Assembly (NCBI RefSeq): GCF_019972315.1
Contig: NZ_BLIZ01000001.1
Span: 1,252,513 to 1,316,512, forward strand
Source of the DNA: Geobacter sp. AOG1
GTDB lineage: Bacteria > Desulfobacterota > Desulfuromonadia > Geobacterales > Geobacteraceae
Reading direction: 5' to 3'
Length of the DNA: 64,000 bases
In this document: one piece after another, positions 6,913 through 58,194 of the stretch
How positions within the stretch are numbered: position 1 is the stretch's first letter
Layout of the letters: the number at the start of each line of letters is the position of its first letter
Translations under genes and position numbers: made by a program
The notes under the pieces: generated by a model
Database searches by the model: none
What the model saw: only the letters and a program-made list of their open reading frames with translations
What the model was told of the DNA's origin: nothing

Positions 6913-7355
6913 TATTTCATGTCATAGTTGCAGATGTCCGCGTTCTTCCCTTCTCCCCCCTTGACGCTGTCGGCGCCCAGGGAGCAGAGGTCGTAGTCAC
7001 CGTGCTCACCGGGGGAGATGTAGACGTAGTCGGTCTTCCACGGGTCCTGGGGAACCTGTTTGCTCTCCAGGTATCCTTCGGTCTTGTAGTTCTTCGGGAT
7101 TACCCCCACGGTCGGCTTGGTGATGAGGGCCGCCAGTCCCTGTTCGGTGGTGGGGTAGGTGCCGTTGTCCAGCTTGTAGAGCTTGAGGGCGCTCTCGATA
7201 TTTCTGATCTGGTTTTTGGCCACGGATATCTTGGCGTCATCGCTTCGTCCCATGATCTTGGGTGCGACCAGGGCTGCCAGCAGGGCGAGAATGACGATTA
7301 CCACCATGATCTCGATGAGGGTGAAGCCACGGCTGTCGCGTAAGGTGTTGTGCAT
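6912..7355 (-). CDS. gspG: Type II secretion major pseudopilin G
   Basis: GspG is the major subunit of the pseudopilus that pushes folded exoproteins through the secretin. The 147-residue protein has a nine-residue leader, the cleavage motif RGFTLIEIMVVIVILALLAAL and the conserved GspG body (AKNQIRNIESALKLYKLDNG, YPTTEQGLAALI, the VPQDPWKTDYVYISPGEHG calcium-binding region). It is the most confidently named pilin-like gene here. About 70 bases separate it from gspF. Its stop codon directly abuts the dispersed element. Confidence 0.96.
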   Translation of the reverse strand: MHNTLRDSRGFTLIEIMVVIVILALLAALVAPKIMGRSDDAKISVAKNQIRNIESALKLYKLDNGTYPTTEQGLAALITKPTVGVIPKNYKTEGYLESKQVPQDPWKTDYVYISPGEHGDYDLCSLGADSVKGGEGKNADICNYDMK

Positions 7356-7424
7356 GGATAAATCCTCCTCTGACGGGTTAAACGTTCAAAGTTAAAGGTT
7401 GTGGGTAACAGGGAACGTTGAACC

Positions 7425-8636
7425 TTATTTGATCAACTGGTTCAGCTGGAAAATCGGGAGCAGCACGGCGATGACCACGAACCCGACGCAGATTCCCATC
7501 CCCAGTACGAGAAGGGGCTCCAGCAGGGCCATGGAGCGGGTAACGGCAGTATCGAACTCCTTTTCGAAGGCCGCCCCGGCCTTGGCGAGCATCTGTTCCA
7601 ACTCTCCCCCCTTTTCCCCCACCGCCACCATGTGGACGAGGAGGGGGGGGAAGAGGGGGTTCTTACCGAGACCGGCCGCCAGGGTGCCACCCTGCATCAA
7701 TTCTTCCCGCACCAGGGCCAGGCAGGTGCGGTATTCCCTGTTTACAACGACATCGCCGGTGATCTCCATGGCCCGGGTGACCGGCACCCCGCTGGCAAGG
7801 AGAAGCCCGAGCACCTTGGCAAAGCGAGAGAGTATCAGGCGCTGCATGAGCGGCCCCACGAGGGGGAGGCGGAGCAGCCAGCGGTCTTGCCGCTGTCGCA
7901 CGCTTTCCCTGCGCCGGAGCCGGTCGTAGCCGAGCAGCGCACCGCAGCCGGCCAGCACCAGGAGCCACCACCCCTTCTGGAGCAGCGTGCTCACCTTGAT
8001 GAGTATGATGGTGATGAGAGGGAGGGTCGCCTTGCTCTCCTGGAAGACGGTGATGATCTTCGGTACTACGAAGGCGAGCAGGAACAGCATCACCCCGCTG
8101 CCGACCACGAGCATCAAGGCCGGATAGGCGAGGGAGGTGACTACCTTGCTCCGGACCGCTTCCTGGTCTTCCTGGAATCCGGCGAGTTTTTCCAGGACGA
8201 TTTCCAGCGCCCCGCTCGCCTCGCCGGCCGCCACCATGCTGATGTAGCTTTCGCTGAAGACATGGGGCTCGCTGCCGAGGGCCTTGGCCAGCGTAGACCC
8301 TTCAGCCAGCCGGTCCCGAATCCGGTTGAGGATGTTTTTCAGTTCTCCCGGACGCTCCTGTTCGTAGAGGGTGGTGACCGCCTCAAACACCGGCACTGCC
8401 GATCCGATAAGGGTGGCGAGCCGGCGGGTCATGAGGGAGAGGTCGGCGCTGCCGACCCGCCGCCGCCAACTCCGCCTCTGCGTGCCGCCGGAGAGTTCCG
8501 TGTCGGGGACAAGTTCTTTCGGGTACAGCCCCTGGTTCTTCAGGCGCAGCCGGGCATCCCGCAGGCTCTCAGCATCGATGGTGCCAGTCACCTCGGAACC
8601 TGCCGCCTTGAATGCGCTATAGCGAAAGGTCGGCAT
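7425..8636 (-). CDS. gspF: Type II secretion inner-membrane platform protein F
   Basis: GspF is the polytopic core of the inner-membrane assembly platform and couples the ATPase to pseudopilus growth. The 403-residue protein has two copies of the T2SSF helical domain (about 70-193 and 270-392), each followed by hydrophobic segments such as YPALMLVVGSGVMLFLLAFVV and the C-terminal GICVGFVVIAVLLPIFQLN. The N-terminal MPTFRYSAFKAAGSEVTG is the usual GspF opening. Its start lies 20 bases inside the end of gspE, which implies coupled translation. Confidence 0.95.
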   Translation of the reverse strand: MPTFRYSAFKAAGSEVTGTIDAESLRDARLRLKNQGLYPKELVPDTELSGGTQRRSWRRRVGSADLSLMTRRLATLIGSAVPVFEAVTTLYEQERPGELKNILNRIRDRLAEGSTLAKALGSEPHVFSESYISMVAAGEASGALEIVLEKLAGFQEDQEAVRSKVVTSLAYPALMLVVGSGVMLFLLAFVVPKIITVFQESKATLPLITIILIKVSTLLQKGWWLLVLAGCGALLGYDRLRRRESVRQRQDRWLLRLPLVGPLMQRLILSRFAKVLGLLLASGVPVTRAMEITGDVVVNREYRTCLALVREELMQGGTLAAGLGKNPLFPPLLVHMVAVGEKGGELEQMLAKAGAAFEKEFDTAVTRSMALLEPLLVLGMGICVGFVVIAVLLPIFQLNQLIK

Positions 8637-10179
8637 AGTCCTCCTGGGTTACCCGCAGGACCTCTTCGATGGTAGTGATGCCGGCGGCCACCTTGGCCAT
8701 GCCGTCGTCCCGGAGGGTCTTCATCCCCTTGCCGATGGCGTATTCCTTGATCTCACCCGCCGAACAGCGCCGGATGATCATGGAGCAGAGCTCCGCGTCC
8801 ACGGGGAGGGATTCGTAAATACCGACACGGCCCGTCATGCCGATGCCGAAACAGTGGTCGCACCCCTTGCCACGGTAAAGGGTCGGTGGCAGTTCGACTC
8901 CCTGATACTGGCGGTCCGGGGTGTACGATTCGCGACAGTAGGGGCATATTTTTCTGACGAGTCGCTGGGCCATGACCGCCGCCAGGGACGAGGCGACCAT
9001 GAATGGCTCGATTCCCATGTCGATGAGCCGTGACACCGCAGTGGCCGAGTCGTTGGTGTGGAGGGTGGAGAGGACCAGGTGGCCGGTGAGAGATGCCTGC
9101 ATGGCGATTTCCGCGGTCTCCGCGTCCCGGATTTCGCCGACCATGATGATGTCCGGGTCCTGGCGCAGGATGGAGCGGAGGCCGCTGGCGAAGGTGAGAT
9201 CGATCTTGGGATTGACCTGGATCTGGCCGACCCCCTTCAGCTGGTATTCCACCGGGTCCTCGATGGTGATGATGTTTTTTTCGGGGGAGTTCAGGTAGTT
9301 GAGGGCGGCATAGAGGGTGGTGGACTTGCCGCTGCCGGTGGGGCCGGTGACGAGGATGATGCCGCTGGTCCGCTTCAGGAACCGTTCGAACCCCTGCACC
9401 GCCGCATCCGTGAACCCCAGGTGGGAGAGGGAGATGATCCCCTTCTGCTTGTCGAGGAGGCGCAGCACCACCCGTTCGCCGAAGAAAGTGGGGATGATGG
9501 AGACGCGGATGTCCACGTCCCGGCCGGCGACGATGACCCGTATCCGCCCGTCCTGGGGGAGCCGTTTTTCGGCGATGTTGAGGGAGGCCATGATCTTGAC
9601 CCGGGAGATAAGGGCTTCCTGGACCACCTTGGGGGGAGCAAGCATCTTGTAGAGGATGCCGTCGATCCGGAAACGAACCTCTAGCTCACGCTCGTAAGGC
9701 TCGATATGAATATCGCTGGCCCGCTCTTTCACCGCCTGGAAAAGGATGGAGTTGAGGAGCCGGATGACCGGCGCCTCGTCGGCGAGATCGAGGAGGTCCT
9801 TCGGCTCGGCCAGCTCGGTGGCGATGGTGGAGAGGTCTTCCCCTTGCAACTCTTCCACAACCTCTTGGGCCGACCCGGAGAGCCGGGAATAGAGGCGGTT
9901 TATGGCGTCCAGAAGCACCTGTCGCGGCACCAACACGGCGGCCGGCTGTATGGCGAACAGGCCTCGCAGCTCGTCCAGGGGGAGGAGGTTGGCTGGGTCG
10001 CCGATGGCCACCAGGAGCCGGCCTTCCTCCTCACGCAGGGGAAGGAGAAGGTTGGCGCGGGCGAAGGCGAGGGGCAATTTTCCCAGAAGAGCCGTATCCA
10101 CTTGGCTGTCGTCGATCTCCGCCTGGCAGGGGAGGCCGAACCGGGCAGCGAGATTTTCCAGTTCCGCGGTCATGGTCAT
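8617..10179 (-). CDS. gspE: Type II secretion ATPase E
   Basis: GspE is the hexameric cytoplasmic ATPase that drives pseudopilus assembly. The 520-residue protein has an N-terminal MshEN-like domain and then the catalytic core. Visible motifs are Walker A GPTGSGKSTTLY (about 280), an Asp box in ITIEDPVEYQ, Walker B DPDIIMVGEIRD and a His box in TGHLVLSTLHTND. The zinc-binding CM domain has its four cysteines in ICPYCRES and CDHCFG. The ATG overlaps the gspD stop by four bases. Confidence 0.97.
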   Translation of the reverse strand: MTMTAELENLAARFGLPCQAEIDDSQVDTALLGKLPLAFARANLLLPLREEEGRLLVAIGDPANLLPLDELRGLFAIQPAAVLVPRQVLLDAINRLYSRLSGSAQEVVEELQGEDLSTIATELAEPKDLLDLADEAPVIRLLNSILFQAVKERASDIHIEPYERELEVRFRIDGILYKMLAPPKVVQEALISRVKIMASLNIAEKRLPQDGRIRVIVAGRDVDIRVSIIPTFFGERVVLRLLDKQKGIISLSHLGFTDAAVQGFERFLKRTSGIILVTGPTGSGKSTTLYAALNYLNSPEKNIITIEDPVEYQLKGVGQIQVNPKIDLTFASGLRSILRQDPDIIMVGEIRDAETAEIAMQASLTGHLVLSTLHTNDSATAVSRLIDMGIEPFMVASSLAAVMAQRLVRKICPYCRESYTPDRQYQGVELPPTLYRGKGCDHCFGIGMTGRVGIYESLPVDAELCSMIIRRCSAGEIKEYAIGKGMKTLRDDGMAKVAAGITTIEEVLRVTQEDYADLSL

Positions 10180-51968: not shown

Positions 51969-52892
51969 ATGAACCACAAACCGTTCAGCCTCGCCGCAGC
52001 CATCGGCAACACGCCGCTCATCGAATTGACTTCCTTCTCGCCGAACCCGCGGGTTCGTATCCTGGCCAAGCTGGAGGGGAACAACCCCGGCGGGTCCATC
52101 AAGGACCGGCCGGCCCTTTATATGCTGACCAGGGCCGAGGAGAACGGGGCGCTTTCCCATGGGAAGATAATCCTGGAGCCGACCTCCGGCAATACGGGGA
52201 TCGCCCTGGCGATGCTCGGCACGTCCAAGGGATACCGGGTCAAGCTGGTGATGCCTGCCTGCGTGAGCCAGGAGCGGCGCAGTGTCCTGGAAGCCTACGG
52301 AGCCGAAGTGGTGCTTTCTCCCGCCGGAGAGGCAACGGACGGAGCGATCCGGATGGCGCATCGCATTCTCGCCGCTGAGCCGAACCGCTACTACATGCCC
52401 AACCAGTACGCCAACCCCTGCAACGTCCTGGCCCATGTGGAGACGACCGGTCCCGAGATCCAGCGGCAGACCGGCGGCGAGATCGACCTGTTCGTAGCGG
52501 GGATGGGAACCACCGGCACTCTCATGGGGGTGGCGGAGTACTTTCGCCGGCACAACCCGCGGGTCAGAGTGATCGGTGTGGAGCCACCTTTGGGACACGC
52601 CATTCAGGGGCTGAAGAACATGGAAGAGGCGATCGTGCCGGAAATCTATCAGCCATCGGCCCTTCACGGGAAATGCACCGTCGTTGACGAGGAGGCTTTT
52701 GCCATGGCCCGGGAACTGGCCCGGCGAGAAGGGCTGTTCGTCGGCATGTCGAGCGGCGCTGCCGTGGCCGGAGCCATCGAGGCCGCAAAAAACCTCGACA
52801 GCGGCACCATCGTGACCATTCTTCCCGACCGCGGCGACCGCTATCTCAGCACCACCCTGTTCCGCTCGGTCTGCGGCTGCTGCCCCCCCTAG
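51969..52892 (+). CDS. cysM: Cysteine synthase (CysM type)
   Basis: This is a PLP-dependent O-acetylserine sulfhydrylase. The 307-residue enzyme has the PLP lysine in NPGGSIKDRPALY, the EPTSGNTGIALAM loop, the phosphate-binding GMGTTGTLMG and the Ser loop GMSSGAAVAGA. The Arg-rich region and length favour CysM over CysK. A short GC-rich C-terminus ends with a Cys pair (CGCCPP). It follows pcnB by 23 bases; this looks like proximity rather than shared pathway. Confidence 0.92.
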   Translation: MNHKPFSLAAAIGNTPLIELTSFSPNPRVRILAKLEGNNPGGSIKDRPALYMLTRAEENGALSHGKIILEPTSGNTGIALAMLGTSKGYRVKLVMPACVSQERRSVLEAYGAEVVLSPAGEATDGAIRMAHRILAAEPNRYYMPNQYANPCNVLAHVETTGPEIQRQTGGEIDLFVAGMGTTGTLMGVAEYFRRHNPRVRVIGVEPPLGHAIQGLKNMEEAIVPEIYQPSALHGKCTVVDEEAFAMARELARREGLFVGMSSGAAVAGAIEAAKNLDSGTIVTILPDRGDRYLSTTLFRSVCGCCPP

Positions 52893-52927
52893 CCACCATC
52901 AGCCCCTTCCTTCGTCCGCATCGATGC

Positions 52928-52956
52928 TTGTAAAGTGTCATCATCTATACTAAAAT
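52928..52956 (+). promoter_or_regulatory. Candidate sigma-70 promoter before the HEAT-repeat gene
   Basis: TTGTAA and TAAAAT are 17 bases apart, about 140 bases upstream of the assigned start, leaving a long 5' leader. It may drive the HEAT / HD-GYP / GGDEF operon. Confidence 0.5.
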
Positions 52957-53096
52957 GATGGCACGACGGAACCGCCGGGATGCGGCCCATCTCTTTTCCT
53001 CCTTCTCTTGCGCTTCTTGCCGTGGCCACCGCTCTTTGCCATGGCATTCACCTATAAATCAAGCCAGCACCGTGCGTGCGCAGGTAAGGCGCTGTC

Positions 53097-55310
53097 ATGG
53101 AGACAGGGGCTCGCGTGTCCACCGATGTCATGGAAAAATCTGAACTTGGGTTGGATACCAGACTGCTGTCGGATTTTATCTGCGAGCTGAATATCTCACG
53201 CCGCCATGTTACCGCCTATCCCTCCAACCACCCTATCATCGTGGCATCTGCCGGCAAGGTCCTGCGGCTGCTGCAACGACTCCTCGAAGTTCAACCCGTT
53301 CTTACCATTGGCATCGCTCGTGACACCCTTATAATCGGTGAGGGTTTTCTTGACAGGAATAACCCCTTGTACCGCGATTTGGCGCGGGCACTCTTCGGCC
53401 ATGGCATTGCCTCCATAAGCTTCAGTGGCGACCTGCCTCCGGAGGAGCTGCAGCGTTTCAATGAAATACTCTGTCTGAAAAAGGAAGAAGTCCGGGGGCG
53501 GGGTGGGATAGAGGCAGTGGTCGCCGCCGCTGGCATCACCCATCTGCAGGTTCAGGCAATTGACTACAGCTCTTTCCATGCCACCGACGAAGTGGTGCTG
53601 ACGCAACCGGAGCGGGAGACAGTTGAACTCTGGGAACAGTTCATCCACGGCCTGCTCGAGGGGACTCTTGCCCCTTGGGGGGAACGGGCTGCCGAGTGGG
53701 ATGCGATCACGCCGGAAATGATGGCCCAGGCCCTGAATCGGCAGCTTGCGTTGACCCCGGCCAAGAGTATGGCCAGCTACGAACAGGCGGTCACCGATTT
53801 CCTGCGGAACATGGACCGGCAGCGTGCCAGGGGGGGGGGCAGTGAGACCATCGACAAGCTGGCGGCCTGCATCAACCAGCTCAATCCGGAGGTGCGCCGT
53901 CAGTTTCTCCTCAGTGCCTTCTCTTCCCTCCCGGCACGACAGGAGATGGCCGAGGAGCTGGTGAAACGCTTTCCGCCGGAGGTCATTCTGGACGCCCTGG
54001 AAGACATCAGTGTCTCCAACTCTTCCCTTTCGCCGGTCGTCCTGGATCTGGTAAAGAAACTGGCGGCGCATGCACCGCTGGGGGAGGCGAAGAGCCAGGT
54101 AGCGAAGCTGCAGCAACCGACCGAACGGGAGCTGCGGGACGATCTGGCGATGATCTTCCGTGAGGACAACGGCGACCACTTTCTTCCCGCGGCTTACCAG
54201 GAAAAGCTTCGCACCATCGTGGCCATCGAAGGGGTATCCGCCCTGGAAGAGGATGAAATTGCGGAGTTGAAGGAGACCCTTACCAACCACTGCGTGGAGA
54301 CAGAGGTAAATGCGGTTATCCTGGAGATCCTCAAAGAACTCCCCGATGATTGCCCGACGCACGTGCTGCAACGAAATCTCCTCGATCTCAGTGGCTATTT
54401 CCTCGAAATGGGGGATTTCGCTTCACTTGCTACCATGTACGACCGCCTGGAGAGTATACATCCTGCCATGGAGATGAGGACGGCAGGGCTCTTTGGTGAA
54501 GTGCTGGCGGTGTTCGCCCGGCCCGAATTCGTGGCGGAGGTGGTGCAGGGGCTTGTTTTCTGGGGTAAGGCCAAGTATGGCGAGATTCAACGACTAATTC
54601 TGCGGGTTGGCGCCCCCTTTGCGGGGCCACTTCTGGATGCCTTGGCGCAGGAACAACGCATGTCCCTGCGCCATTTTTACATGGACTGTCTGCAGAAGAT
54701 GGGAGCAATCGCGCGGGATGCCGCCCTGGCCAGGCTGCGTGACAGCCGCTGGTATTTCGTCCGTAATCTCCTTGTGCTTCTCCGCGACCTTGATGACCCT
54801 ACGGTGGTGCGCCATATAAAGCTCCTCCTCTCCCATCCCCATCCGAAGGTTCGCCAGGAACTGCTCAAGACCCTCCTCCATTATCAGGACCCTGAGTCCG
54901 ATCGGCTTCTGCACCGCTATCTGACCGGCAAAGATCGTGAGCAGCGACTGATGGGGGTTCAGTTGGCGGCACAGAGTCGCAACCCGCAGGTTGTAACCAT
55001 GCTCCTGGCGTTTCTGGCGAAGGGAGGCATTGCCGATTACGAGTTTGGGCTCAAGAGTGCCGTGGTGAAGACCCTCGGGGAGATGGGGAATGTGGACGCG
55101 CTACCGGAACTGGTGACACTGCTCCGTTCCCGGAATCTTCTCCATCCGCAGAAGCATGCCCTTCTCAAGGTGAAGATAGTGCATTCCCTGGCGCATTACC
55201 CTCCGGCCTGGGTTAGCTACCTGCTCGACGAGTTGTGCCGGGGGGACAACCAGGAACTCGCCAAGGCGGCGTCAGATGTACGGCAACAGTTGTCAGTGAG
55301 GGGCGCATGA
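53097..55310 (+). CDS. HEAT-repeat protein of a c-di-GMP signalling operon
   Basis: This 737-residue protein appears cytoplasmic, without signal peptide or membrane helix. The N-terminal part (about 25-130) has FICELNISRRHVTAYPSNHP and is not assigned; a similar start (HLMTAVSNASLYNLEHQQV) opens the next gene, suggesting a shared domain. The C-terminal part from about 480 is a HEAT-like helical repeat (LLLSHPHPKVRQELLKTLLH, MGVQLAAQSRNPQVVTMLL). Such proteins are scaffolds. The stop overlaps the HD-GYP start. ATG 53097 is weakly supported; 53130 is an alternative. Confidence 0.8.
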   Translation: METGARVSTDVMEKSELGLDTRLLSDFICELNISRRHVTAYPSNHPIIVASAGKVLRLLQRLLEVQPVLTIGIARDTLIIGEGFLDRNNPLYRDLARALFGHGIASISFSGDLPPEELQRFNEILCLKKEEVRGRGGIEAVVAAAGITHLQVQAIDYSSFHATDEVVLTQPERETVELWEQFIHGLLEGTLAPWGERAAEWDAITPEMMAQALNRQLALTPAKSMASYEQAVTDFLRNMDRQRARGGGSETIDKLAACINQLNPEVRRQFLLSAFSSLPARQEMAEELVKRFPPEVILDALEDISVSNSSLSPVVLDLVKKLAAHAPLGEAKSQVAKLQQPTERELRDDLAMIFREDNGDHFLPAAYQEKLRTIVAIEGVSALEEDEIAELKETLTNHCVETEVNAVILEILKELPDDCPTHVLQRNLLDLSGYFLEMGDFASLATMYDRLESIHPAMEMRTAGLFGEVLAVFARPEFVAEVVQGLVFWGKAKYGEIQRLILRVGAPFAGPLLDALAQEQRMSLRHFYMDCLQKMGAIARDAALARLRDSRWYFVRNLLVLLRDLDDPTVVRHIKLLLSHPHPKVRQELLKTLLHYQDPESDRLLHRYLTGKDREQRLMGVQLAAQSRNPQVVTMLLAFLAKGGIADYEFGLKSAVVKTLGEMGNVDALPELVTLLRSRNLLHPQKHALLKVKIVHSLAHYPPAWVSYLLDELCRGDNQELAKAASDVRQQLSVRGA

Positions 55311-56506
55311 GCGGCGACCGGCGTACAAACCTGCAAAGCTGCATCCGTCATCTGATGACGGCGGTATCCAATGCCTCTCTCTATAATCTGGAGCACCAGC
55401 AGGTAGCGCGTCTCTGCGAGACGGCCCTGTCCGATCTACTGGGGGCCATGGGTGATGGAGAGGAGGTAGCGCTGCTCCTCGTCGATGAAGAACTGGTCTT
55501 TGCCGACTCCCCGCTCGACAGCAACATGTATGTCAACCGTTTTTCCCGTGCCCTGAAAAGCCGTGGCGTCGGTCATCTCCGGTTGCTTCGGGGGGTCACC
55601 CATCAGGAATTGAAGCTTCTGGTCGGCTGCCTTTCCAGGCAGATGGGGGCTGGCGGGGGAGTCCGCTCCACCGATCACGTCCGGTTCGGGCGTCTTGAAG
55701 TTCTTACCGCAAGTCCCTTCGCCGACAGCGCGACAACGTGGGACGAGGTCGGCGAACGCCCTGTCCCTTCTCTGGAGGAGATCCCCGCCGAAGAGGTGGC
55801 CCGCTTCATGGATATCTACCAGGGGGTGCGCCGGCATCGGAAGCTCCATGTGGTCGGTATTTCCGAGATCGTGGCCGGCTTCGTGGATGCGTTCCAGCAG
55901 GTGGGGAATCCGTTCCTGGCTCTGGCGCCGTTGCGGGCACTGGATGAATATACCTTTACCCATTCAACCAATGTCTGCATTCTCAACCTGGGGCAGGCCA
56001 TGGCGCTCGGCATCGACGGACCGCTCTTGCACGACATAGGGATAGCGGCCATGCTTCACGATATTGGCAAGCTGTTCATCCCCGAAGAAATCCTCAAAAA
56101 GGCGGGCCAGCTGGAAGACGATGAGTGGAAACTGGTCCGGGAGCACCCTCTCAAGGGGGCTCAATACCTGCTCGATACCCCTGGTGTGCCGCGGCTTGCG
56201 GTGGTGACCGCTTTCGAGCACCATATGAGATTCAATGGTACCGGCTATCCCGCCGTCACTCCCGGGTGGCGGCAGAACCTTTGCAGCCAGATGACGACGG
56301 TATCCGACTGCTTCGATGCCCTGCGCAGCAATCGGGCCTATCGAGGAGCCCTCGAATACGACGAAATTTCCGACATCATGCTGGGACAGGCGGGGAACGA
56401 ACTCCATCCGCTCCTGACCAGGAATTTTCTCAAGGTCCTGCGCCGGCTAACGGGTGCCCAGACCAACCCTGCCAATCCGTCGCGACAGGAAGGAGCACCG
56501 CGCTGA
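55307..56506 (+). CDS. HD-GYP domain protein (putative c-di-GMP phosphodiesterase)
   Basis: HD-GYP proteins hydrolyse cyclic di-GMP. The 399-residue protein has an N-terminal domain like that of the preceding gene (about 1-170), then the HD domain (DEYTFTHSTNVCILNL, AMLHDIGKLFIP at about 248-259) and the GYP part (EHHMRFNGTGYP at about 304-315). The metal-binding HD pair is present; the motif HHExxDGxGYP reads HHMRFNGTGYP, with Asn for Asp and Met for Glu, so activity should not be assumed. Start and stop overlap both neighbours by four bases. Confidence 0.88.
   Translation: MSGDRRTNLQSCIRHLMTAVSNASLYNLEHQQVARLCETALSDLLGAMGDGEEVALLLVDEELVFADSPLDSNMYVNRFSRALKSRGVGHLRLLRGVTHQELKLLVGCLSRQMGAGGGVRSTDHVRFGRLEVLTASPFADSATTWDEVGERPVPSLEEIPAEEVARFMDIYQGVRRHRKLHVVGISEIVAGFVDAFQQVGNPFLALAPLRALDEYTFTHSTNVCILNLGQAMALGIDGPLLHDIGIAAMLHDIGKLFIPEEILKKAGQLEDDEWKLVREHPLKGAQYLLDTPGVPRLAVVTAFEHHMRFNGTGYPAVTPGWRQNLCSQMTTVSDCFDALRSNRAYRGALEYDEISDIMLGQAGNELHPLLTRNFLKVLRRLTGAQTNPANPSRQEGAPR
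56490..56495 (+). promoter_or_regulatory. Ribosome binding site supporting a CTG start
   Basis: AAGGAG lies seven bases before the CTG at 56503. No ATG, GTG or TTG exists in frame between the coding start region and codon 50 of the cyclase, so this site is what decides the start. Confidence 0.65.
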
Positions 56507-57780
56507 AGCTTTTTCCCCTCACACTCCGTCTCTGGCCCAAGCCGTTCAATTACTTCGAGCATGTCAAGCTGTTCGTTATCACTCTCGGCGCGCTCGTCGC
56601 CTTCATCGTCGCCGGTATCTTCGCGGTGCTCTATACCCGTACCAACACCCTCATGTACGAACGGGTTCGGGAGCAGGCGGCAACCTATGCCGATCTGATC
56701 ATGCATACCAAGATGTGGAACTACGACTACGGCGGTGTCTACGTAGAAAAGCGTCGCGGGGTCGATTCCAATGCCTATCTCCGGCAACTCGGCGTGAACC
56801 CCGATGTGAAGGTGGCGGGGGGGCGAACATTCACCATCCGCAACCACGCCATCATGATTGAGGAGATATCCCACCGCAGCGAAAAGCAGGACGGGGTGAG
56901 GTTCCGCATCGTCAGTCTCAAGCCCATCGACCCGGCCAACGTGCCGGACAAGCTGGAAACGGCGGCGTTCGACCAGTTTGCCCGGGGGGAGCGTGAATCG
57001 CATTTTCAGCAAAAAGGGGATAATCCTTCATTTCGTTACCTGAAGCCGCTCTTTGTGGAGCAGAGCTGCCTTGAGTGCCATACCACCCAGGGTTACAAGG
57101 TTGGTGACGTCATCGGTGCGATAAGTATCTCCATCCCCATGACCACCCTTGTCCGGGAAGCCCGCGCGAACAAAATACTTATTGTTGTCGCTGCGGTACT
57201 GACCATCGGTCTCCTGGTGACGCTCATCTACATTCTCACCTGGCGGCTTGTCATCAAGCTCGATGAAGTGCAGAAGCGGCTCAAGAAGCTCGCTTCCACC
57301 GACGAACTGACCGGGCTCAAGAACCGGCGGCACATCATGAAGCGGCTCGAAGAGGAATTCGAGCGGGCTGGCAGGCTGCAGGAAACCCTTTGTCTCATCA
57401 TCCTTGACATCGACCATTTCAAGCGAATCAACGATACCCATGGCCACCCCTTTGGCGATCTCGTCCTCAAGCGTGTGGCCAAGCGTCTGCAGGAGGCAAC
57501 ACGTCGTTATGACACCATCGGACGGATTGGTGGCGAGGAGTTCCTCGTCATCTCCCCTGGCACGAATGCCGAAGAAGCGTTGCATCTCGCGGAGCGGTTG
57601 CGGACCACGGTCAGCCAGGAACCGATGGGGGATGGAGAGAAAGACGTCACCATCACCCTCAGTGCCGGCTTTGCTCTCTCCAAACCGGGTGACAGGGGAA
57701 GCGAGACTCTCATGAAAAGGGCGGATATGGCGCTTTATCGGGCCAAACAGGGGGGGCGAAACAGGGTGGAAGAAGGGTGA
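56503..57780 (+). CDS. Periplasmic heme-sensor (DUF3365) diguanylate cyclase
   Basis: This protein makes cyclic di-GMP. In its 425 residues, TM1 (about 20-42) is followed by a periplasmic Tll0287-like DUF3365 domain with a c-type heme motif CLECH (about 189-193), then TM2 (about 226-248) and a GGDEF domain. The active site GGEEF is intact (343-347) and an inhibitory RRYD site sits five residues before it. The start appears to be CTG, overlapping the HD-GYP stop in a CTGA, with AAGGAG at good spacing. The gene ends the three-gene operon, pairing a synthase with a putative hydrolase. Confidence 0.88.
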   Translation: MKLFPLTLRLWPKPFNYFEHVKLFVITLGALVAFIVAGIFAVLYTRTNTLMYERVREQAATYADLIMHTKMWNYDYGGVYVEKRRGVDSNAYLRQLGVNPDVKVAGGRTFTIRNHAIMIEEISHRSEKQDGVRFRIVSLKPIDPANVPDKLETAAFDQFARGERESHFQQKGDNPSFRYLKPLFVEQSCLECHTTQGYKVGDVIGAISISIPMTTLVREARANKILIVVAAVLTIGLLVTLIYILTWRLVIKLDEVQKRLKKLASTDELTGLKNRRHIMKRLEEEFERAGRLQETLCLIILDIDHFKRINDTHGHPFGDLVLKRVAKRLQEATRRYDTIGRIGGEEFLVISPGTNAEEALHLAERLRTTVSQEPMGDGEKDVTITLSAGFALSKPGDRGSETLMKRADMALYRAKQGGRNRVEEG

Positions 57781-57930: not shown

Positions 57931-58110
57931 ATGAAGCTCGATGAGATCAAGGAGATCGCCCGGAAACAGGGGATAAAAGCAGGTAAGATGAAGAAAGCGG
58001 ACCTCGTCAGGGCGATCCAGGCCGCGGAAGGGAACCCTGCCTGTTTCGAGAGCGGAACGGCGGACCAGTGCGGCCAGAATGTCTGTCTCTGGCGGGAGGA
58101 CTGCCGCTAG
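57931..58110 (+). CDS. Small SAP/Rho-N-like protein, 59 residues
   Basis: The short reading frame MKLDEIKEIARKQGIKAGK... is preceded by GGAGGGAGG and a good promoter. Residues 1-31 resemble the SAP or Rho N-terminal helix-extension-helix (LDEIKEIARKQGIKAGKMKK, ADLVRAIQ), a nucleic-acid-binding fold. Residues 32-59 are Cys-rich, with four Cys (PACFES, DQCGQNVC, REDCR) that could bind metal. A role in DNA or RNA binding is inferred from the fold only. It is easily missed because of its size. Confidence 0.8.
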   Translation: MKLDEIKEIARKQGIKAGKMKKADLVRAIQAAEGNPACFESGTADQCGQNVCLWREDCR

Positions 58111-58194
58111 GCAGGACCTTGTGCGGAGAAACTGGTTGCCAAGCCTGACCAGTGTGGTAAAGTCGAGCGAAACTTTCCCGCGAGGTAAGACTGC

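Follow-up and report, generated by a model that had tools for sequence, protein, structure and literature searches.

A HEAT-repeat protein and an HD-GYP protein with a common N-terminal domain form a conserved gene pair, joined by a heme-GGDEF cyclase in Geobacter sp. AOG1

In a 64,000-nucleotide stretch of the genome of Geobacter sp. AOG1 (contig NZ_BLIZ01000001.1, positions 1,252,513 to 1,316,512; referred to as the window), three genes of the + strand lie head to tail and encode a HEAT-repeat protein of 737 amino acids (aa), an HD-GYP protein of 399 aa and a membrane-bound heme-GGDEF cyclase of 425 aa. Judged by gene order and sequence conservation, the core unit of this operon is the HEAT/HD-GYP pair. 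On balance, we consider it probable that HD-GYP phosphodiesterase and HEAT scaffold form a two-protein unit of cyclic di-GMP (c-di-GMP) turnover, docked via a domain present in both, to which the cyclase has been added as third member in this lineage. An HD-GYP enzyme is commonly regarded as a lone protein with an activity set by its own sensor domain; the enzyme described here seems to be paired with a standing HEAT partner bearing the same front domain, and this beyond one genus. Gene order, gene overlaps, domain homology, catalytic ligands, the c-di-GMP signature of the cyclase and its heme motif were computed.

Results

Operon structure

The features of the operon are as follows.

53097..55310, + strand: HEAT-repeat protein, 737 aa; HEAT_2 match; N-terminal shared domain followed by a helical HEAT arm
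53154..53561, + strand: shared N-terminal domain of the HEAT protein (approximately residues 20-155); profile comparison and alignment
53217-53231, + strand: Y41-P-x-x-H45 in the shared domain of the HEAT protein
55307..55310, + strand: ATGA, stop of the HEAT gene overlapping the start of the HD-GYP gene
55307..56506, + strand, ATG start: HD-GYP protein, 399 aa, predicted cyclic dinucleotide phosphodiesterase; HD_5 match, profile match to 4mcw, model
55307..55690, + strand: shared N-terminal domain of the HD-GYP protein (approximately residues 1-128); profile comparison and alignments
56057..56062, + strand: HD motif H251-D252 of the HD-GYP protein, constant in 55/55 orthologs
56243..56251, + strand: GYP motif G313-Y314-P315 of the HD-GYP protein, constant in 55/55 orthologs
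56487..56495, + strand: AGGAAGGAG, Shine-Dalgarno-like, before the cyclase; counterpart GGAAGGAG in genome G001
56503..57780, + strand, probable CTG start: sCache_heme (Tll0287-like) membrane diguanylate cyclase, 425 aa; PF11845 and PF00990, start deduced
56503..56506, + strand: CTGA, stop of the HD-GYP gene overlapping the probable start of the cyclase gene
57067..57081, + strand: CLECH heme c attachment site, C189-H193 of the cyclase; alignment to CLACH of Tll0287
57502..57543, + strand: RRYD and GGEEF signature of the cyclase; read from the sequence and from GGDEF alignments

The initial annotation of this DNA had described the three genes as translated from overlapping frames, which agrees with the ATGA at 55307-55310 and the CTGA at 56503-56506.

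The HEAT and HD-GYP proteins share their N-terminal domain

N- and C-terminal parts of the HEAT and HD-GYP proteins of this operon (pair A) and of a paralogous pair (pair B) were compared by profile-profile alignment. The two N-terminal parts of the operon matched each other with a probability of 98.2% (E 5e-14), and all six comparisons between N-terminal parts gave 95.4-99.6% (E 2e-8 to 1e-23), while the 16 controls of N- against C-terminal parts did not exceed 10.4%, the highest being due to an 11-residue overlap of the cuts. By these profiles the N-terminal domains are homologous, which bears out the earlier suggestion of a common domain type. Tyr and His of a YxxxH motif are invariant in all 18 rows of a joint alignment of the domain, and the corresponding Y26 and H30 of the HD-GYP protein are kept in 55/55 orthologs.

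AlphaFold models of the HEAT protein (m00c803de270a; mean predicted local distance difference test score, pLDDT, 82.3) and the HD-GYP protein (mb890f240d53a; mean pLDDT 84.7) both predict the domain at high confidence. Compared by the order of elements, both contain helix-helix-strand-strand-helix-strand-helix and a late strand, so that the main helices and strands follow in the same order, as the initial annotation would have it; the HEAT model has two extra short helices ahead of the last strand. A Pfam scan of 18 domain members yielded as sole match Pop8 in one member (E 0.0049), and in the scan of the operon proteins Pop8 reached 15.2 bits, below its cut-off of 27.2. A PDB sequence search with the domain returned nothing convincing (best E 0.036 over 39 positions). 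The structural match lists of the fold searches with full proteins were occupied by HD and HEAT chains and thus barely probed the shared domain.

The pair is conserved as a unit

Among 48 genomes of the family (HD-GYP ortholog cut-off E 1e-40), 20 contained an HD-GYP ortholog, at 21 loci because one genome has two, and each of these loci carried a HEAT ortholog, whole or as a piece, beside the HD-GYP gene. The 4-base ATGA overlap was found in 17 of the 21 pairs (16 of the 20 others and the window); at least three loci (G042, G044, G046) are damaged or cut. A scan of named genomes, in which 78 loci were kept from the best 80 of at least 389 candidates, extended the range: by title, these are mostly Geobacteraceae and other Desulfuromonadales, but also metagenome-assembled genomes (MAGs) of Nitrospirota, Syntrophus and Syntrophorhabdus. 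In 76 of the 78 loci, more than chance would give, the end of a HEAT gene lay between -18 and +78 bases from the HD-GYP match, and in the remaining two the HD-GYP match begins at a contig end. The count of 76 was obtained both for the best-scoring and for the matched HD-GYP gene, a choice that matters in six two-gene loci. The synteny check proposed initially thus had a clear outcome for the pair, which recurs as a unit, and all three genes were found together in four genomes. The claim of a three-gene operon had to be narrowed accordingly: the pair is conserved, and the cyclase is an occasional partner, since it stands beside the pair in only two of the 48 family genomes.

Loci L133, L140, L141, L169, L171 and L172 each contain two A-type HD-GYP genes, and in some Desulfuromonadales the pair seems, from its gene arrangement, to be duplicated side by side. 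The paralogous pair B of the window's genome (L066:3330-6271; G000:C1:571.3-574.3 kb) consists of a HEAT protein of 532 aa and an HD-GYP protein of 445 aa and adjoins a radA-like gene (named by eye). It was present in 4/4 genomes of the genus searched and also in other genera of the family.

Features of the HD-GYP and HEAT proteins

The HD-GYP protein matched HD_5 (1.5e-17; 64.3 bits against a cut-off of 27.2) and HD (6.6e-08), both above the curated Pfam cut-offs. The HD-GYP motif is HHExxDGxGYP, and the roles of the metal ligands (first His, HD, second His, HH, final Asp) we assume to be those of PmGH. Constant in 55/55 aligned HD-GYP proteins were H219, H251, D252, K255, H280, H305, H306, D334 and G313-Y314-P315. 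From these residues we read the protein as a putatively active two-metal enzyme, a slow or receptor-like form being the alternative.

For the HEAT protein, HEAT_2 was the Pfam match above the curated cut-off (4.2e-11). Its arm has regular repeats from about residue 390 to 737, and the structural match list of residues 391-737 consisted entirely of HEAT/ARM chains. A motif RW[YFH]xxR[NH] occurred in 40 of 50 A-type and 8 of 12 B-type HEAT proteins and in 0 of 94 open reading frames (ORFs) without the domain from 20 loci; none of the nine long fused proteins described below contained an RWYxxRN-type motif. This motif is a candidate site on the HEAT proteins of pairs.

Occurrence of the shared domain outside the operon

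At E 0.01 the genome of the window contains four copies of the domain, one in each protein of the two HEAT/HD-GYP pairs. In a sample of the phylum, 61 of 148 genomes contained it (E 1e-6). The 128 matches listed there include 39 pairs of neighbours on the same strand (78 matches, 33 genomes), and in 36 of the 39 the upstream ORF is longer than the downstream one; a further eight are tandem copies inside four ORFs, and 42 are unpaired. Several unpaired matches (L249, L250, L256) adjoin an HD-GYP gene whose own copy of the domain fell below the threshold.

Among the 11 long ORFs of at least 1180 codons, nine were scanned, the other two being those of G088 and G123; a shorter ORF of 953 codons (G099) also lay outside the scan. 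GGDEF domains make c-di-GMP and PilZ domains sense it. Seven of the nine proteins contained GGDEF in the arrangement GGDEF-AAA-domain-HEAT, with the shared domain doubled in five, and the other two were domain-HEAT-cNMP-binding-PilZ proteins. Because 9/9 long proteins hold GGDEF or PilZ, the shared domain appears tied to c-di-GMP independently of the operon. The 836-aa domain protein of L248 had HEAT-type repeats only. As observations in their own right, GGDEF-AAA_16-domain-HEAT is an unusual cyclase architecture, found in L240, L241, L242, L244, L245 and L247 (about 1180-1450 aa; GGDEF, AAA_16 ATPase, one or two domain copies, HEAT repeats), with L240 holding two such genes adjoining, and the proteins of L243:1080-5456 and L246:5014-10056 (shared domain, HEAT, cNMP-binding and PilZ) would unite two kinds of cyclic nucleotide sensing.

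Start codon, heme domain and product of the cyclase

GTG 56125, which heads the list of starts for the cyclase (551 aa), was rejected, as it lies inside the HD-GYP gene and adds 126 residues out of frame. No sensibly placed ATG, GTG or TTG exists in the window sequence for this gene. A CTG at 56503 follows 7 nucleotides after AGGAAGGAG. In the sister genome G001 (Geomobilimonas luticola), CTGA is likewise present and preceded by GGAAGGAG, and the frame is closed 17 codons upstream; the first ordinary start there, a GTG, would remove a conserved WPKPF stretch. Geobacter sp. OR-1 has ATGA at the position of the CTGA. As G001 keeps both CTGA and GGAAGGAG and OR-1 has ATGA there, CTG is the best reading, and the cyclase probably starts at CTG 56503. 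Gene callers restricted to ATG, GTG and TTG would misplace this start.

Pfam assigned the cyclase a Tll0287-like domain (PF11845; 6.6e-22, 78.9 bits against 24.1) and a GGDEF domain (PF00990; 1.1e-47, 162.3 bits against 23.8). Two hydrophobic stretches, seen by eye, flank the heme domain, and CLECH aligned with CLACH of Tll0287 (PDB 5b82) with E 0.0024 in a single-sequence search. The CxxCH heme site noticed initially is thus backed by motif and family match. RRYD we take to be an I-site pattern. According to the accessible part of a 2026 preprint (PMC12889525), PF11845 domains bind heme c covalently, belong to the Cache and not the PAS type, occur in c-di-GMP enzymes, and act as nitric oxide (NO)-type sensors when fused to signalling modules and as redox proteins when alone. 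By analogy with the fused domains, this favours NO as the ligand of the cyclase and leaves redox state as second choice, which amends the initial proposal of a redox or heme-ligand input: its heme site stands, with NO now placed first.

In Hypr GGDEF enzymes, which make cyclic GMP-AMP (cGAMP), the Asp at position 348 of GacA is replaced by Ser or Thr, according to the accessible part of PMC6456294. The cyclase does not follow this Hypr pattern: its GHPFGD aligned with GHxxGD of canonical cyclases and the Asp is kept, the column having been assigned by eye. The expected product is c-di-GMP because of GGEEF and the Asp where cGAMP-making enzymes have Ser.

Distribution and history of the three-gene arrangement

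Orthologs of the cyclase (cut-off E 1e-60) were also found in 20 of the 48 family genomes, beside the pair only in G000, the genome of the window, and in G001. Downstream of the pair, a heme-GGDEF gene was present at three of the 78 named loci (L129, L130, L131), so that the trio is found in four genomes: the window, Geomobilimonas luticola (L129), MAG NC_groundwater_1996 (L130) and Geobacter sp. OR-1 (L131). In 4/4 trios the HD-GYP and cyclase genes overlap, as CTGA, CTGA, ATGA and TGATG. The HD-GYP proteins of the trios are 54-57% identical and form one tree branch, with a support of 93/77, which is below the usual mark. The trio is preceded by pcnB and cysK in the window, directly by pcnB in L130, and by MFGW-type, ferredoxin-like and peroxiredoxin-like genes (named by eye) in L131; in all four genomes it is at one same locus. 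At this locus, G002 and G003 have cysK and then the cyclase with its own ATG, and G006 has pcnB and then the cyclase, in each case without the pair.

One recent insertion between cysK and the cyclase in G000 and G001 was rejected as origin of the trio, as the trio is also present, at this very locus, in OR-1 and MAG NC_groundwater_1996. For the same reason, the simplest account is that the trio is old and that G002, G003 and G006 have lost the pair, with repeated gain as an alternative. The upstream stretches of the trio and of the lone cyclase are alignable in part, which fits gain or loss alike. The cyclase tree is weak (its three outgroup rows are very long, and one of them, L081, is a misread fragment of 58 residues), and nothing rests on it.

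In Geomonas oryzae (L161, ~7256-10067) the gene after the pair encodes a GGDEF protein that lacks a heme-domain match, and the pair may thus be joined by other cyclases as well.

Flanking regions

Positions 52890-53096 of the window, between cysK and the HEAT gene, can be aligned in part with the stretch from cysK to the lone cyclase in G002 and G003, and CTTGT and a TA-rich word are common to these stretches, which suggests a common promoter region for trio and lone cyclase. Downstream of the trio, a short ORF (57932-58111) has a start reminiscent of a Rho N-terminal or SAP-like helix domain and a Cys-rich tail. Within the 64 kb of the window, Rfam gave no RNA family at the gathering threshold. 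The HEAT and HD-GYP proteins had no match in PHROGs or PADLOC; one fused GGDEF protein gave two weak PADLOC matches (2.4e-4, 2.9e-4).

Discussion

Here, we infer domain docking, phosphodiesterase activity and its substrate, co-localisation with the cyclase, and an NO or redox input. The HEAT and HD-GYP proteins would be translated together and bound to each other through their common N-terminal domain, and the HEAT arm probably offers a surface to a further partner or target. The complex could then remove c-di-GMP locally. In the trio, a periplasmic signal (NO or redox) perceived at the heme would raise c-di-GMP synthesis right beside the enzyme removing it, and the arrangement suggests a compact make-and-break switch.

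Several observations weigh against this picture. In 55/55 HD-GYP proteins, HH is followed by M, L, I or A instead of the E of the motif, and only 10 of the 55 retain the Gly of DG. Tyr215 replaces the third-metal Glu, which we assume to correspond to Glu185 of PmGH, in 55/55, with its position placed by eye from the 4mcw alignment. In fused proteins that carry the domain in tandem, the copies cannot be told apart as one HEAT-like and one HD-like, and therefore these proteins give no clean heterodimer picture. As for the cyclase, 18 of the 20 family genomes bearing it have it away from the pair, and 75 of the 78 named pair loci have no heme-domain gene, with 69 of the 78 spanning at least 1200 bases downstream.

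The distribution of the cyclase also speaks for pair and cyclase as uncoupled neighbours, with the cyclase as an independent NO or redox sensor: G002, G003 and G006 have its ortholog at the same locus without the pair, and only three of the 78 named pair loci have such a gene downstream. We regard this as unlikely, albeit not by far, given that in every one of the four trios the cyclase gene still overlaps the HD-GYP gene, despite only 54-57% identity of their HD-GYP proteins. More unlikely still appears a role of the HD-GYP protein chiefly as a cyclic dinucleotide receptor, which would bind c-di-GMP with little turnover and pass its state to a HEAT arm acting on a target. The departures from the motif at HHE and DG, and the c-di-GMP-bound DvhD (9rbz_D) among the best structural matches, would fit this role, but the two-metal ligands and the Lys of HDxGK are present in 55/55 proteins, which is beyond the needs of binding. 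Divergent HD-GYP enzymes for cGAMP have reportedly been described, as named in the title of Wright 2020. That the pair acts on 3',3'-cGAMP, with the adjoining cyclase as a separate c-di-GMP source, would also suit the accessible parts of PMC8835794 and PMC6456294, by which cGAMP signalling is established in Geobacter and used in metal respiration, but is very improbable in view of the c-di-GMP-type Asp and the GGEEF of the operon's own cyclase.

The docked phosphodiesterase and scaffold thus remain the reading that we prefer. Taken further, the shared domain may be an as yet undescribed docking domain for c-di-GMP networks, serving a HEAT-phosphodiesterase complex in many Desulfobacterota and recurring in one-chain versions, either as GGDEF with AAA ATPase or as cNMP-binding with PilZ; we put this forward tentatively, as a possibility falling somewhat short of even odds. 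If the domain does dock both proteins, this would be a testable answer to how one c-di-GMP enzyme among many stays local and target-bound, and many annotations as 'HEAT repeat protein' would move into the c-di-GMP network. In the titles and abstract openings searched, and in the accessible part of PMC7159879, the pairing, the shared domain and its re-use are not described, a scope outside which most of the subscription literature lies, so that absence is unproven.

Comparison with known systems

Each enzyme of the operon is of a known kind. The HD-GYP protein is like known HD-GYP phosphodiesterases in its fold and metal ligands, with matches to PmGH (4mcw: profile E 1.5e-34; 4mcw_B: Z 19.1, root-mean-square deviation (rmsd) 3.3, 186 aligned), PA4781 (4r8z_A: Z 18.2, rmsd 4.1, 190 aligned), Bd1817 (3tmb_B: Z 22.5, rmsd 2.9, 215 aligned) and the c-di-GMP-bound HD-GYP domain of DvhD (9rbz_D: Z 18.1, rmsd 3.4, 188 aligned). 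It differs from them in its unnamed N-terminal domain and in the HEAT gene nearly always adjoining, and from the tri-nuclear PmGH type in the missing third-metal Glu (Tyr instead) and the altered residues of HHE..DG. The HEAT protein resembles HEAT and alphaRep repeat proteins by its HEAT_2 match and its HEAT/ARM structural matches; unlike these, it carries the shared N-terminal domain and often the RW[YFH]xxR[NH] motif. The cyclase is of the known sCache_heme-GGDEF type. With canonical membrane diguanylate cyclases it has in common GGEEF, RRYD and the Asp at the nucleotide-selecting position, whereas its probable CTG start overlapping the upstream HD-GYP stop sets it apart. With the sCache_heme or Tll0287-like sensors (PF11845: Tll0287, GSU0582, GSU0935) it shares the Pfam match and the CxxCH, and unlike other proteins of that kind, it belongs in four genomes to one operon with a HEAT/HD-GYP pair.

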